A stretch of 64,000 nucleotides of DNA, taken from positions 1,302,001-1,366,000 of the forward strand of contig NZ_JANHAW010000002.1 in the NCBI RefSeq assembly GCF_024464595.1. Direction: 5' to 3'. Origin of the DNA: Halobellus litoreus. Its GTDB lineage: Archaea > Halobacteriota > Halobacteria > Halobacteriales > Haloferacaceae. Position 1 is the first letter of the stretch; each line of letters opens with the position of its first letter. The notes under the pieces were generated by a model, which saw nothing but the letters and a program-made list of their open reading frames with translations, ran no database searches and was not told where the DNA came from. A program made the position numbers and the translations under genes. This document shows positions 3,433 through 57,528 of this stretch, piece by piece.

Positions 3433-3496
3433 CGCTACGAAGATTCGGATCAGAGCGTGACGAGCGTTTATATGCGAGCGAGCGGCCAGCACCGCC

Positions 3497-3603
3497 GTGA
3501 TATAAGCGGGATCCCGCGTCGGGCCGCGGTTGCTCGACACGCCGGCGCGGGGACGAGCGGTCGCGATCGGAAATCGCGACTCTGTGTGTCGACTGTTAGC
3601 AAC
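3497..3603 (+). ncRNA. Structured RNA family, copy A
   Basis: A TATA box TTTATAT lies at 3467-3473 and the predicted transcript starts at the GTGA at 3497. Helix S1 is CCCGCG (3513-3518) with CGCGGG (3546-3551). The S1 loop holds GTTGC-TCGACAC (3529-3540), which pairs beyond S1 with GTGTCGA (3586-3592) and, after the bulge CTGTTA, with GCAAC (3599-3603). That makes an H-type pseudoknot. A perfect hairpin TCGCGAT/ATCGCGA (3561-3567/3573-3579) sits between the two 3' strands. The locus lies between tRNA-Gly and a small membrane protein. It overlaps no convincing open frame. Three more copies are at 28876, 46346 and 56929. The function is unknown. Confidence 0.72.
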
Positions 3604-23883: not shown

Positions 23884-24076
23884 AACGCGGAGCGAACCTG
23901 TCGCTGGCACCCTCGCCAGTAGAATCGACGCCGTTTTTCTGTAGAGTCTCCAGCACGCAGTTAGCCGTCCGGTCACGGTCACGGAGGATATATCTTTTTT
24001 TACGTCGCTGTCACGACGCTGTCGTCGAACACCGAGAGTAAACGCTTATCACGGCCGGCCAGTTACCCCTCGGTGT

Positions 24077-24128
<52 letters not shown>

Positions 24129-24150
<22 letters not shown>

Positions 24151-24421
24151 TCCTTCTCGTCTCCGAGCGACAGCGAGGAGCGATAGACGACCTGGAGGGG
24201 CTTGAACCCTGCAAGTCGCAGCGCGCGAACGGAGTGAGCGCGACCGTCTTGCTTCGGTTCAAGTCCCTCCCGGCCCGTGAGCCGTCTCTGAACGAAGTGA
24301 AGAGCGGCGGTAGTACACGGGAGACTTGAACCAGGGAGCGACGCGAGTGGAACGAGCAGAGCGACTGTGGTTCAACGTCCCTCCCGGCCCGTGAGCCGTC
24401 TCTGAACGAAGTGAAGAGCGG
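24129..24421. repeat. Tandem, partly inverted repeats of the tRNA-Lys 3' end
   Basis: The 22-base tRNA 3' end starting GGTTCAAGTCCC (24129-24150) recurs exactly at 24256-24277 and, with one inserted base, at 24369-24391. Between them are inverted T-arm copies: 24194-24208 is complementary to 24129-24143 at 14 of 15 positions, and 24319-24332 partly so to the second copy. Copies two and three are both followed by the same 29 bases starting GAGCCGTCTCTG. The whole is three diverged tandem units of about 113-127 bp. It looks like repeated integration or duplication at the tRNA 3' end. Confidence 0.85.
24281..24308 (+). terminator. Hairpin with GAACGAAGTGA loop, repeat unit 2
   Basis: GCCG-CTCT (T24285 bulged) pairs with AGAGCGGC around the 11-nt loop GAACGAAGTGA (24290-24300). 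Almost the same hairpin follows at 24395-24421, and a shorter one, CGCGC/GCGCG around GAACGGAGTGA, is at 24222-24242. The loop matches the hairpin after tRNA-Gly (3401-3432). Confidence 0.6.
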
Positions 24422-28740: not shown

Positions 28741-28875
28741 TCGGCTCCACGCTCGCGGACCGGTTCGACGGCACTGTTCGGACCGACGGCTCTGATCGGT
28801 TCGACGCTCACTGACCGCCGTCGAGAGTCGCGATCGGGACGAGCGTTTATACCCGATGACGGGACCATCGCCGCC

Positions 28876-28990
28876 GTGACGTGAGTTCCACCCCGCGTCG
28901 GGAAGCGGTTGTCCGGCACGTCGGCGCGGGGGACGCGAGGACGGCTGGGACATCAGCCCGTATTCGCAGCGAGTGCCGGCTGTTCGCAAC
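28876..28990 (+). ncRNA. Structured RNA family, copy B
   Basis: TATA box TTTATA at 28846-28851; transcript expected from GTGACGTGAG at 28876. Helix S1 is CCCCGCG (28891-28897) with CGCGGGG (28925-28931). The pseudoknot helix S2 is GTTGT-CCGGCAC (28908-28919) with GTGCCGG (28973-28979), bulge CTGTTC, then GCAAC (28986-28990). The variable hairpin is GGCTG/CAGCC (28943-28947/28954-28958). This is the cleanest copy and the best seed for a search model. It sits in the gap between the nitrilase gene and the convergent dihydroorotase gene. Confidence 0.75.
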
Positions 28991-29024: not shown

Positions 29025-30326
29025 CTACCGGCGGACGTTCTCGCCACTCGGTTCGCCCAGGACCGCCTCGCCGTCGTAGACGATTTCGCCACGGGAAAGC
29101 GTCAGCGACGGGAAAACGCCGATCATTCCCTCGAACGGCGTCCACCCGCACTTCGAGTGGAGATCGTCGCCGCGGATCTCCCGCTCGTCCTCGGGGTCGA
29201 CGAGCACCAGGTCTGCGTCGTAGCCCTCGGCGACGCGGCCCTTGGCGGGGAGATCGAAGATTTCGGCCGGATTCGTCGCCGTGAGGTCGCGGACGCGTTC
29301 GTAGGTGATCGCTCCCCGTCGCGCTCGCTCCAAGAGCAGCGGCAGCATCGTCTCGACGCCGGGGACGCCGCTCGGCGCATCCCACAGACTCGTCTCCTTC
29401 TCCTCGACGGTGTGCGGGGCGTGATCGGTCGCGACGATGTCGACATCGCCGTCGACGAGCCGCTGCCACAGCGCTTCGCGACGCTCCTCGCTCCGAAGCG
29501 GGGGGTTCATTCGCCCGTACGTGCCGAGTTCGGTCGCGTTCTCACGGGAGAGAAACAGGTGATGCGGCGTCACCTCGCAGGTCGCACCGCCCGCGACGGC
29601 GGCGTCGACGCCCTCGGGCGTGCTCGTGTGCGCGATGTGGATCGCGGCGTCGGTCTCGGCGCCGACCTCGACGGCGCGTTCGACCGCCGCTGCCTCGGCC
29701 TCGGCGCGGCGGTACTGGCTCCAGACGTCGGCGTCGGCGTCGCGACCGACGCCGCCGGCATCGCGCTCGCGCGCCGTCTCGTCGAACAGGTCGGCGTCTT
29801 CGGCGTGGACAGTGACGACGACGTCCGCCTCGGCCGCCCGCTCGACGGCCTCGGCGAACAGGTCGGCGTCGATGCCCATATCGCCCGTCGAGTCGGCGAG
29901 GAACACCTCACCGAGGGCGAACAGCGGCCGGTCGAACAGCGAGTCGGGGTCCCAGTCGGGCGTCACGCCGCCGTTGATACCGTAGTCGACGTGCGAGTCG
30001 GCAGCGAGCGACGACTTTTCGTCGAACGCGTCGCCGGTGACCGTCGGCGGCGACGTGTTCGGCTGGTCGACGACGGTCGTCACGCCGCCGGCCGCGGCGC
30101 TCGACGAGCCCGTGCGCCAGGTTTCTTTCTGGGAGTGACCCGGTTCCCGGAAGTGAACGTGGGCGTCGATCGCACCGGGAAGCAACAGCCGTTCGTCGGC
30201 GTCGACGACGCGGTCGGCCGGCCCGTCGTCGGTCACGTCCCCGACGTCGGTGATACTGCCGGACTCGGTCCGGACGTCGCAGATTCGACCGTCGGCGAGT
30301 CTCGCGTCGCGGAAGAGCGTCGACAT
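29025..30326 (-). CDS. pyrC: Dihydroorotase
   Basis: Cyclises carbamoyl-aspartate in pyrimidine synthesis. The 433-residue protein is a class I amidohydrolase. The metal motif DAHVHFREPGH lies near residue 55. VDQPNTSPP, CEVTPHHLFLS, NPPLRSEERR and ATDHAPHTVEEK follow in family order. Both metal-site His pairs and the catalytic Asp of ATDHAP are present. It stands alone on the minus strand, convergent with nitrilase and RNA copy B. Confidence 0.95.
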   Translation of the reverse strand: MSTLFRDARLADGRICDVRTESGSITDVGDVTDDGPADRVVDADERLLLPGAIDAHVHFREPGHSQKETWRTGSSSAAAGGVTTVVDQPNTSPPTVTGDAFDEKSSLAADSHVDYGINGGVTPDWDPDSLFDRPLFALGEVFLADSTGDMGIDADLFAEAVERAAEADVVVTVHAEDADLFDETARERDAGGVGRDADADVWSQYRRAEAEAAAVERAVEVGAETDAAIHIAHTSTPEGVDAAVAGGATCEVTPHHLFLSRENATELGTYGRMNPPLRSEERREALWQRLVDGDVDIVATDHAPHTVEEKETSLWDAPSGVPGVETMLPLLLERARRGAITYERVRDLTATNPAEIFDLPAKGRVAEGYDADLVLVDPEDEREIRGDDLHSKCGWTPFEGMIGVFPSLTLSRGEIVYDGEAVLGEPSGENVRR

Positions 30327-37048: not shown

Positions 37049-37545
37049 ACGGCAGAGAGAGCTCGGCTCCCGTCGGTCCGATTCGGACTGACGAGGAAAG
37101 TCCCCCCACCGTCCGGACGGGTGACCGGGCGCAAGCCCGGAGTCGGAGACGGCTGGCTCTGGAACAGAGACGAGACCCCTCGACCCGACCGATGAGACGC
37201 GAGCGGCGGTCTCCGCCGCCGGCGCACGCGGGGCGACCCGCGAGCGCGCGAACCGACCCGTAAGGGAAGGGAGTTGACCCGTCGAGGGCAGCGCAGTCGC
37301 GCTACGACTGCGAAACGTGAGCGGCGTCAGCCGCGAACGGCGCGGTCGTAGCGCGATCGCCCGAGATGGCGGCAGCCATCTCGTCGCGTACGAGCGCAGT
37401 GCGCCCGTGCGCCGACGGTCGAGAACGGATGGAACGGCGAATCCTCACCGGTGCAAGTCCGCGCCGCCAAGGTAGTCCGGACAGGGCGCGGCCGCTCAGC
37501 CGAATGCCGAGACGAACAGAAGGGGGCTTACTCCTCTCAGCCGCT
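37049..37545 (+). ncRNA. rnpB: RNase P RNA
   Basis: The catalytic RNA of RNase P, which trims tRNA 5' ends. The universal 5' core GAGGAAAGTCC is at 37093-37103 and its P4 partner ACAGAAGGGGGCTTA at 37516-37530. The ends pair as helix P1: GGCAGAGAG (37051-37059) with CTCTCAGCC (37534-37542), with one A-A mismatch. A GCTTATTGG element at about 37019-37027 lies the right distance upstream for transcription from about 37049. The frames crossing this region are not genes. The ends are accurate to about five bases, and the length near 497 nt is somewhat long. Confidence 0.94.
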
Positions 37546-46206: not shown

Positions 46207-46345
46207 ACCCGCACCTGCAACGCCCGACGGCAAAAATCCTCACTTCGACGACGGCCGGGTCGAACCGGCCGCATCGGGCGGCCGTGGCACCCTCGGGAGT
46301 CGCGGCCGGCGAGGGTTTATCACCGATCGGGAGGCCAGCCCCGCC

Positions 46346-46465
46346 GTGACGTGAGACGCGCCCCGCGTCGAAACGCGGTCGTTCGGCACGGCGACGGGGG
46401 ATCACGGCCGTCAGCGGGACGACGAGGCTGATCGGCCGGCCGGCGGTGTGCCGACTGCTCGCCAA
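46346..46465 (+). ncRNA. Structured RNA family, copy C
   Basis: TATA box TTTATC at 46316-46321; predicted start at GTGACGTGAG, 46346. S1 is CCCCGCG (46361-46367) with CG-A-CGGGG (46392-46399), one bulged A. S2 is TCGGCAC (46383-46389) with GTGCCGA (46448-46454), then bulge CTGCTC; the distal GTCGT/GCCAA part is weak (three of five pairs). A longer variable hairpin uses TCAGC/GCTGA plus GGCCG/CGGCC. It lies in the 340-base gap 46207-46546, which otherwise holds only the promoters of the flanking genes. Confidence 0.7.
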
Positions 46466-56879: not shown

Positions 56880-56928
56880 GGCGTTCTTCGGGCTGACGTT
56901 TATATACGATCGCGGGCCCAGAGCCCGC

Positions 56929-57006
56929 GTGACGTAGCACCCGGCCCGCGCCGGTCAGCGGTTGCCCGACACGCCGTCGCGGGATCGTCCCTGTCGGCTG
57001 TTCGCC
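56929..57006 (+). ncRNA. Structured RNA family, copy D (short form)
   Basis: TATA box TTTATATA at 56899-56906; predicted start at GTGACGTAGC, 56929. S1 is CCCGCG (56945-56950) with CGCGGG (56978-56983). S2 is CCGACA (56966-56971) with TGTCGG (56992-56997), followed by the conserved bulge CTGTTC and GC. The variable hairpin found in the other copies is gone; only eight bases join the two 3' strands. It fills the gap between the DHH gene and the convergent gene that ends at 57007. Confidence 0.68.
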
Positions 57007-57528
57007 CTATTCGGTCCCTTCGATCGGCTCCGAGCCGCCGGGCTGGACGCCGGTCTCGGTCTCCTCGCCGACGACCCACTTGTCGGAGTAACTCGCGCCG
57101 CAGGCGCAATGGGCGTACGCGTGGATCACCGCGCCGCGAGCGTAGAGTCCGCCGACTTCCTCGTTCTGCGCCTCCGAGAACGCGAAGATGAACTCGACGT
57201 CGTGTGCCCCGGAGATTTCGCCGTCGGCGGCGTCCGTCTCCGCGGGGCCGTCGGCAGCGCCGGCCTCGGGACACTCGCCGCCGTCGAGATCGCGGGAGAT
57301 GTGACCCCGCGAGTCCATCGCCCCGCGGGCGAACTCCATCGCGTCCATTCCGGTCCCGGCGGCGAACGCCCGCCGGCCGTCGTCGCCGGGAACGACGAGC
57401 ACGTAGCCCGAGTCGACCGTCTCGCCGAGCTTCGGGAGTTTCCCCTGGCTGTCGAGGTACTCGTCGGTCAGAAACAGCGCGACGTCGTCGTGACGCTCGC
57501 CCGCGAGAAACGCGTCGAGTTGGCTCAT
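57007..57528 (-). CDS. DUF5807-like haloarchaeal protein
   Basis: A 173-residue acidic protein starting MSQLDAFLAGERHDDVALFL. An alpha/beta domain (1-75) is followed by a disordered Ala/Asp/Gly linker and a C-terminal beta part (HDVEFIFAFSEAQNEEVGGLY, HAYAHCACGASYSDKW) with a Cys-x-Cys that may bind metal. I recall it as DUF5807; the function is unknown. Its 3' end abuts RNA copy D. Confidence 0.8.
   Translation of the reverse strand: MSQLDAFLAGERHDDVALFLTDEYLDSQGKLPKLGETVDSGYVLVVPGDDGRRAFAAGTGMDAMEFARGAMDSRGHISRDLDGGECPEAGAADGPAETDAADGEISGAHDVEFIFAFSEAQNEEVGGLYARGAVIHAYAHCACGASYSDKWVVGEETETGVQPGGSEPIEGTE

Follow-up and report, generated by a model that had tools for sequence, protein, structure and literature searches.

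Lambda bar is a bacterial two-codon minigene, and riboswitches of the preQ1-II type are H-type pseudoknots whose third loop carries an inserted hairpin. The axe-txe minigene mg2 reads ATG-ACT-TAA and has a Shine-Dalgarno site, and both mg2 and the LEE1 minigene sit in the leaders of protein genes (PMC8708949, in excerpt). In murine leukaemia virus, the readthrough pseudoknot follows the gag UAG after an unstructured spacer of 8 nt (PMC4178896, in excerpt). In Haloferax volcanii, 72% of the protein transcripts are leaderless and the leaderless route of translation predominates; GUG is found as a start on leaderless transcripts, where it was weak in tests of mutated genes (PMC4983044, in excerpt). 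Also, ribosomes occupy 42 of 56 H. volcanii sRNAs, most of which lack coding potential (PMC12482152, in excerpt).

The predicted small RNAs that we describe here resemble gag-pol of murine leukaemia virus, as far as the excerpted account goes, in having a stop codon, a short spacer (8 nt in the virus, 6–7 nt here), and an H-type pseudoknot formed by two helices, S1 and S2. In that account the viral stop closes a long ORF, and readthrough carries ribosomes on into pol, whereas the haloarchaeal RNA has two sense codons (start included) at its 5' end and conserves no ORF downstream. The start-X-stop layout is that of the bacterial minigenes, and the last sense codon is often threonine (91 of 169 copies), as in the excerpted mg2. 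Unlike the bacterial minigenes, however, the haloarchaeal RNA is free-standing, apparently leaderless, multi-copy, and pseudoknotted. The layout of the fold is like that of the preQ1-II type, but the RNA is not a leader of the next gene, and the downstream gene is usually convergent. Finally, the H. volcanii sRNAs are likewise small RNAs of a haloarchaeon that occur on ribosomes although no ORF is recognised in them; the available sections of their description (PMC12482152) mention neither a start-X-stop nor a pseudoknot.

Four copies in the window and a family across the order

The window, a 64,000-nt stretch of contig C2 of the Halobellus litoreus genome, contains four copies of the RNA (A to D):

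3467–3602, +, copy A: TATA at 3467, GTG-ATA-TAA at 3497–3505, 3' box to 3602
3512–3521 and 3543–3552, +, strands of S1 in copy A
3534–3540 (TCGACAC) and 3586–3592 (GTGTCGA), +, strands of S2 in copy A
28846–28989, +, copy B
28846–28851, +, TATA box TTTATA of copy B, with the BRE immediately upstream (assigned from a 100-copy profile)
28860–28867, +, promoter block of copy B, CGGGACCA, conserved at up to 1.7 bits, with the start codon 8 nt downstream
28876–28884, +, putative leaderless mini-ORF of copy B, GTG-ACG-TGA (start-X-stop)
28891–28900, +, 5' strand of S1 in copy B, CCCCGCGTCG, with the stop codon 6 nt upstream
28913–28919, +, 5' strand of S2 in copy B, CCGGCAC
28922–28931, +, 3' strand of S1 in copy B, CGGCGCGGGG
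28932–28972, +, variable insert of copy B (S3 hairpin region, loop L3)
28973–28979, +, 3' strand of S2 in copy B, GTGCCGG
28980–28989, +, 3' box of copy B, CTGTTCGCAA (consensus CTGTTCGCCA), after which conservation stops
29025–30326, −, dihydroorotase-like amidohydrolase (Pfam Amidohydro_1), convergent with copy B, its stop about 35 nt past the 3' box
46316–46464, +, copy C: TATA at 46316, GTG-ACG-TGA at 46346–46354, 3' box to 46464
46361–46370 and 46392–46400, +, strands of S1 in copy C
46383–46389 (TCGGCAC) and 46448–46454 (GTGCCGA), +, strands of S2 in copy C
56899–57007, +, copy D: TATA at 56899, GTG-ACG-TAG at 56929–56937, 3' box to 57007, L3 of only 7 nt
56945–56953 and 56975–56983, +, strands of S1 in copy D
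56966–56972 (CCGACAC) and 56991–56997 (CTGTCGG), +, strands of S2 in copy D

No Rfam 15 family reaches its gathering score at copies A to D. The matches within the window are two tRNAs and the archaeal RNase P RNA (37051–37542, +; RF00373, 122.9 bits). We also saw an identical pair of 45-nt segments (24263–24307 and 24377–24421), 114 nt apart, directly after a tRNA-Lys gene (24076–24153).

Copy B matched 31 loci in the 3.86 Mb H. litoreus genome by BLASTN. A covariance model of the 56-nt core, built from 31 copies (R1), had 48 matches in the same genome at E ≤ 1e-4, one of which (L114) is a decayed copy without TATA box, stop, or 3' box. A search with the promoter block found two further, more divergent copies (L180 and L182). 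By eye, the R1 matches appear clumped along the chromosome rather than evenly spaced. The genus was represented by 16 other genomes: 13–55 copies are present in 11 of them, and five (G001, G008, G010, G012, and G016) have no match at E ≤ 0.01. In G008, the stretch that we read has a low GC content (48%), and the dihydroorotase gene has no adjoining copy. The five copy-free genomes and their sisters with 13–55 copies make a natural contrast of gain or loss.

A second model (R2), built from 41 diverse copies and applied with 25 candidates scored per genome, matched 120 of 194 genomes and 36 of 64 genera of the order Halobacteriales; one low-copy genus (g29) shows two or three copies. There was no match outside the order: in a sample of 246 genomes from the phylum, the 24 with a match all belong to the order. 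Among plasmids there was one copy, on a plasmid of Halobellus limi, where it is unannotated. We found no family match in phages and no exact match to the pattern in viral contigs, and the literature that we searched held no description of a start-stop pseudoknot family.

By comparison of the copies, this is a family of small RNAs across haloarchaea, typically about 78–150 nt long, in which each copy has its own predicted BRE/TATA promoter and scattered copies number up to about fifty per genome. An earlier note on this DNA, which had described the pseudoknot in the four copies, had missed the size of the family, the promoter, the 3' box, and the start-X-stop ORF.

The pseudoknot

In the window, the four copies lie where the earlier note had implied, and the S2 strands have the sequences that it had given them. 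(In copy D six of the seven pairs form, the end pair being C/C.) Its observation that positions 1 and 4 of S2 occur in all four combinations in copies A to D, each with a matching partner, is also correct. The note had taken this to be independent covariation. Four copies alone are insufficient to show independence, but the larger set does show it.

For the larger set, the S2 strands were located by the neighbouring loop motif and the 3' box only, and pairing was not used. All seven pairs form in 80 of 101 copies; 2000 shuffles gave 25.8 such copies on average and 38 at most. (Ten of 112 rows were undefined, and L151, which is copy B again, was left out of this all-copies count.) The result holds for copies from H. 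litoreus (43 of 46; shuffled mean 31.6, maximum 37) and for those from other genomes (27 of 45; shuffled mean 6.2, maximum 14), and part of the failures are due to the use of the first 3' box. At position 1, T-A occurs 35 times, G-C 27, C-G 25, and A-T 3. In a mutual-information scan of 104 copies (boxes, upstream block, and S2), S2 pairs take the first three ranks among the column pairs, although the scan is biased towards S2 because the 3' box was selected by at least 5 pairs. In the same scan we found no long-range partner for the loop motif or the 3' box, both of which are conserved.

S1 is supported separately. Across the 41 diverse copies, 91.3% of cells pair, two-sided changes occur at 9 of the 10 pairs, and none of 500 shuffles reached the observed covariation. 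Furthermore, G-U outnumbers A-C in both alignments, by 12 to 0 in A2 (28 of 31 copies) and by 22 to 7 in A3 (41 of the 62 copies with coordinates). An excess of G-U over A-C speaks for this strand acting as RNA and against a DNA palindrome. The two-sided changes in S1, the covariation in S2, and this excess together bear out the earlier proposal of an H-type pseudoknot under selection at the RNA level.

The geometry is compatible with such a fold. S1 is mostly 10–11 bp and S2 is 7 bp, while L1 is mostly 11–12 nt and L2 mostly 1–2 nt. L3 ranges from 3 to 146 nt among the copies, with a mode of 7–9 nt in other genomes. An L3 that at its short end is mostly 7–9 nt fits an H-type pseudoknot with an S1 of 10–11 bp and an L2 of 1–2 nt. 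Minimum-free-energy folds of copies A to D were not better than shuffles (z of −1.22, −1.09, 0.18, and 0.88) with a program that cannot form pseudoknots. Inserts of at least 25 nt do fold better than shuffles (mean z −1.84, n = 59). We considered whether the S3 hairpin is a guide and rejected this, as the insert is unconserved even among the relatives of copy B (6–55 nt). By eye, the insert after S1 in another H. litoreus copy (L108) has a perfect 15-nt terminal inverted repeat (ATACTGATTACTCTC / GAGAGTAATCAGTAT), and so it looks like a small transposon-derived insertion within a tolerant loop.

The earlier note had also extended the fold by a distal helix, GTTGC/GCAAC. The match is there in copy A (GTTGC/GCAAC) and in copy B (GTTGT/GCAAC). 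However, all five pairs form in only 2 of 46 H. litoreus copies and 1 of 48 copies from other genomes, which is the level of shuffled partners, and we therefore rejected the distal helix as a feature of the family. What is well supported by the comparison is the anatomy of an H-type pseudoknot that tolerates a variable hairpin in L3.

A minimal start-X-stop ORF

The 5' box, CGTGAYCTGA, reads as a start, one codon, and a stop. This start-X-stop is present in 103 of 111 scored copies. Two copies that failed the box search (L087 and L114) lie outside the 111, and if they are counted as failures the figure is 103 of 113. (Dropped before the counts were L118, a chance match, and the false hits L084, L089, L092, L093, L095, and L099. 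L151 was excluded from the ORF counts, as it was from the mutual-information scan and from the counts for geometry and the distal helix.) Among the 111, the third codon is TGA in 87, TAG in 13, TAA in 8, and TGC in 1 (L129). It is never TGG, despite G being common at both places (Fisher test, 1e-11). The shifted frames have 0–6 starts and 0–1 stops.

As a test set we used 60 of the best matches listed for the 11 other genomes of the genus with copies. These were found with the model of the H. litoreus copies, which is blind to which letters form a stop. All 60 have the start-X-stop, with TGA in 40, TAG in 15, and TAA in 5. When S1 and S2 were found without the box (in low-copy and other genomes), 14 of 16 distinct structured copies had a stop 5–7 nt ahead of S1. 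The spacer between the stop and S1 is 6–7 nt in 92 of the 111 scored copies and in 56 of the 60 test copies; its sequence is variable, and its length is nearly fixed.

GTG is the start codon in 157 of 169 copies (about 93%), and T and G at its positions 2 and 3 are conserved in nearly all copies. After threonine, the middle codon (n = 169) is most often isoleucine (47), arginine (12), or serine (10). Among the relatives of copy B, the stop is retained while switching between TGA and TAA. In six copies (L079, L113, L115, L128, L139, and L172) the canonical start is lost, with near-cognate or other codons in its place, and the stop is retained. L087 retains the structure with neither start nor stop, L138 has no clear ORF, and L130, if read from its structure, is ATG-CGC-TAA, contrary to its reading among the 111. 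Past the stop codon, openness is not clearly greater in frame 0 than in frame 2. As judged from these comparisons, the 5' end has the form of a minigene (a start, one sense codon, and a stop), and the mini-ORF may be translated.

Promoter and transcript ends

A profile of 100 copies has C/G of the BRE at −35/−34 and the TATA box at −29 to −24, relative to the 5' box. A GNGNCCA block lies at −14 to −8, and some of its positions are more conserved than the TATA box. At the other end, conservation ceases beyond the CTGTTCGCCA box, and the profile has no T tract after it.

The block is not confined to the RNA. In the H. litoreus genome it has 78 matches at up to 2 mismatches, and the reversed pattern has 0. 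We read 13 stretches with the block that were not among the known copies, and two of these contain RNAs. At 7 of 10 further (non-RNA) sites with a nearby start codon, an ATG or GTG begins exactly 8 nt past the CCA. The GTG of the RNA thus occupies the position that leaderless start codons take. The spacing of the promoter and the block in common with leaderless genes both fit a transcript whose predicted 5' end is the start codon.

The protein genes that bear the block encode a T2SSE ATPase, DUF7310, DUF7283, DUF7382, and DUF7857 proteins (Pfam), a MinD/ParA-like ATPase, a NucS-like protein, a DEAD_2 helicase, and a phosphohexomutase. At L175 (C2:814000-823000), L176, and L183, GNGRCCA precedes leaderless protein genes whose ATG is exactly 8 nt past the CCA, and three of the genes that it precedes sit in one T2SSE/DUF7310/DUF7283 cluster. 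GNGRCCA may define a class of haloarchaeal promoters, or a regulon, that has yet to be described.

Across the 194 genomes of the order, DUF7283 and the RNA are both found in 108, the RNA only in 12, DUF7283 only in 26, and neither in 48 (Fisher test, 1e-15, uncorrected for phylogeny). Because the test is uncorrected and there are exceptions in both directions (G012 and G070), we do not claim that DUF7283 is a partner of the RNA.

Neighbourhood and evolution of the copies

The downstream gene is on the opposite strand for 64 of the 94 copies where a downstream gene was called (30 of 44 in H. litoreus and 34 of 50 elsewhere, with a crude in-house gene caller), as compared with an expectation of 0.44–0.48 for gaps of at least 100 nt in the window. 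A riboswitch or leader RNA does not match this arrangement, and we rejected that candidate. By eye, a promoter-like TATA stands between the RNA and the gene at L077, L132, and L138. The neighbours, mostly named by eye from sequence, are mixed housekeeping genes. The largest recurrent cluster of neighbours has 5 loci (with flanking genes partly annotated), and no neighbour family recurs widely. For an omega RNA of the IS605/TnpB type, which would have tnpB next to it or a guide past its conserved 3' end, this lack of a widely recurring neighbour is the observation that bears on the matter.

In another 11 genomes of the genus, a relative occupies the place of copy B next to dihydroorotase. The S2 helices of these relatives (CTGGCAC/GTGCCAG, CCGACAC/GTGTCGG, CCGGTAC/GTACCGG, and one G-U) show compensated changes at one position in the genome, and the insert after S1 is not retained among them. 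Copies in a different genus (L081) and a different family (L123) likewise adjoin dihydroorotase.

In H. litoreus, a single S1 is common to most copies. Copy A of the window (L023) and another copy (L025) are nearly identical in the promoter and 5' half and have unrelated 3' halves, which makes gene conversion between dispersed copies likely. As copies are homogenised inside one genus, the counts do not represent independent events.

What the RNA may do

The family, its fold, and the start-X-stop are established by comparison of sequences; a stalling or decoy function is what we infer from them. We lean towards the view that this is a leaderless minigene RNA that engages the ribosome. The RNA opens with the shortest possible protein message, which suggests that it acts by engaging a ribosome. 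Because the copies have one common core and no copy-specific guide segment, they probably share the same job. We propose that a ribosome would load at the very 5' end, on the start codon, in the manner of the leaderless mRNAs that are usual in haloarchaea, and would form one peptide bond before the stop codon enters the A site. As the spacing from the stop to S1 is like that of murine leukaemia virus, the pseudoknot would meet the mRNA entry at that moment. The RNA would then engage and delay the terminating ribosome, as a ribosome-bound decoy or a stalling RNA. Loading may be rare, given that about 93% of the starts are GTG, which is reported to be weak on leaderless transcripts.

The layout invites comparison with readthrough. 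A stop at a fixed short distance before the pseudoknot (6–7 nt in 92 of 111 copies) is much like the stop, 8-nt spacer, and H-type pseudoknot of murine leukaemia virus (PMC4178896, in excerpt), and a readthrough or frameshift cassette would let ribosomes pass the stop to make a longer product. This seems very improbable as the purpose of the RNA, because frame 0 has no clear excess of openness over frame 2, and also because L3 varies from 3 to 146 nt irrespective of frame. We find it harder still to credit a dispersed mobile or palindromic repeat (MITE- or REP-like) that is structured as DNA only. There are many dispersed copies, S1 is homogenised in the genus, and L023 and L025 have half-copies in common, but a promoter at fixed spacing, G-U in excess of A-C, synonymy among stop codons, and compensated changes at a fixed position all point to RNA. 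We also considered HDV-like ribozymes, K-turn/L7Ae RNAs, tmRNA, and Ro-type RNAs, and set these aside, as helix order or boxes do not seem to fit.

The alternative that we take most seriously, though we think it somewhat unlikely, is that the RNA acts on a partner via the loop motif and the 3' box and that the mini-ORF only protects it from translation. As this class of promoter starts transcription on RTG, an immediate stop would discard ribosomes before they unwind the pseudoknot. The promoter class is indeed common to leaderless protein genes, the start is mostly GTG (weak, according to the excerpted PMC4983044), and strong conservation marks both the loop motif and the 3' box, which have no long-range partner. 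However, it would be simpler to avoid RTG, yet T and G at positions 2 and 3 are kept in nearly all copies. Also, the stop is retained in copies with a degenerate start, and the spacer from the stop to S1 is nearly fixed in length though its sequence varies. An action in cis, in which each copy runs towards the 3' end of its neighbour and locally tunes the neighbour's termination or 3' end, is improbable in our judgement. It would explain the excess of convergent downstream genes (64 of 94) and the retention of positions such as the dihydroorotase site across genera. On the other hand, the neighbours are mixed housekeeping genes, nothing is conserved past the 3' box, and about a third of the copies have another arrangement (by a crude gene caller). 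Moreover, an RNA without a terminator would likewise favour convergent sites.

A ribosome-engaging minigene RNA could have a wider role. In the broadest form of this proposal, which is possible but on the doubtful side, the family would be a new ribosome-directed class of RNA: the pseudoknot would hold the ribosome at the stop, and the many redundant copies would titrate or sense terminating ribosomes and so tune leaderless translation, under a promoter element in common with a pilus-like secretion ATPase cluster.

Minimal start-X-stop ORFs and pseudoknots close to a stop are each already known, but neither Rfam 15 nor the literature that we searched showed us multi-copy free RNAs that unite both at a leaderless 5' end. 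The family suggests that a noncoding RNA can be selected for the "translation" of a single codon. Haloarchaea with tractable genetics permit a direct test of this, in part with existing Ribo-seq data. If ribosomes do park on this RNA, then haloarchaea would own a dedicated RNA device that acts on initiation or termination.
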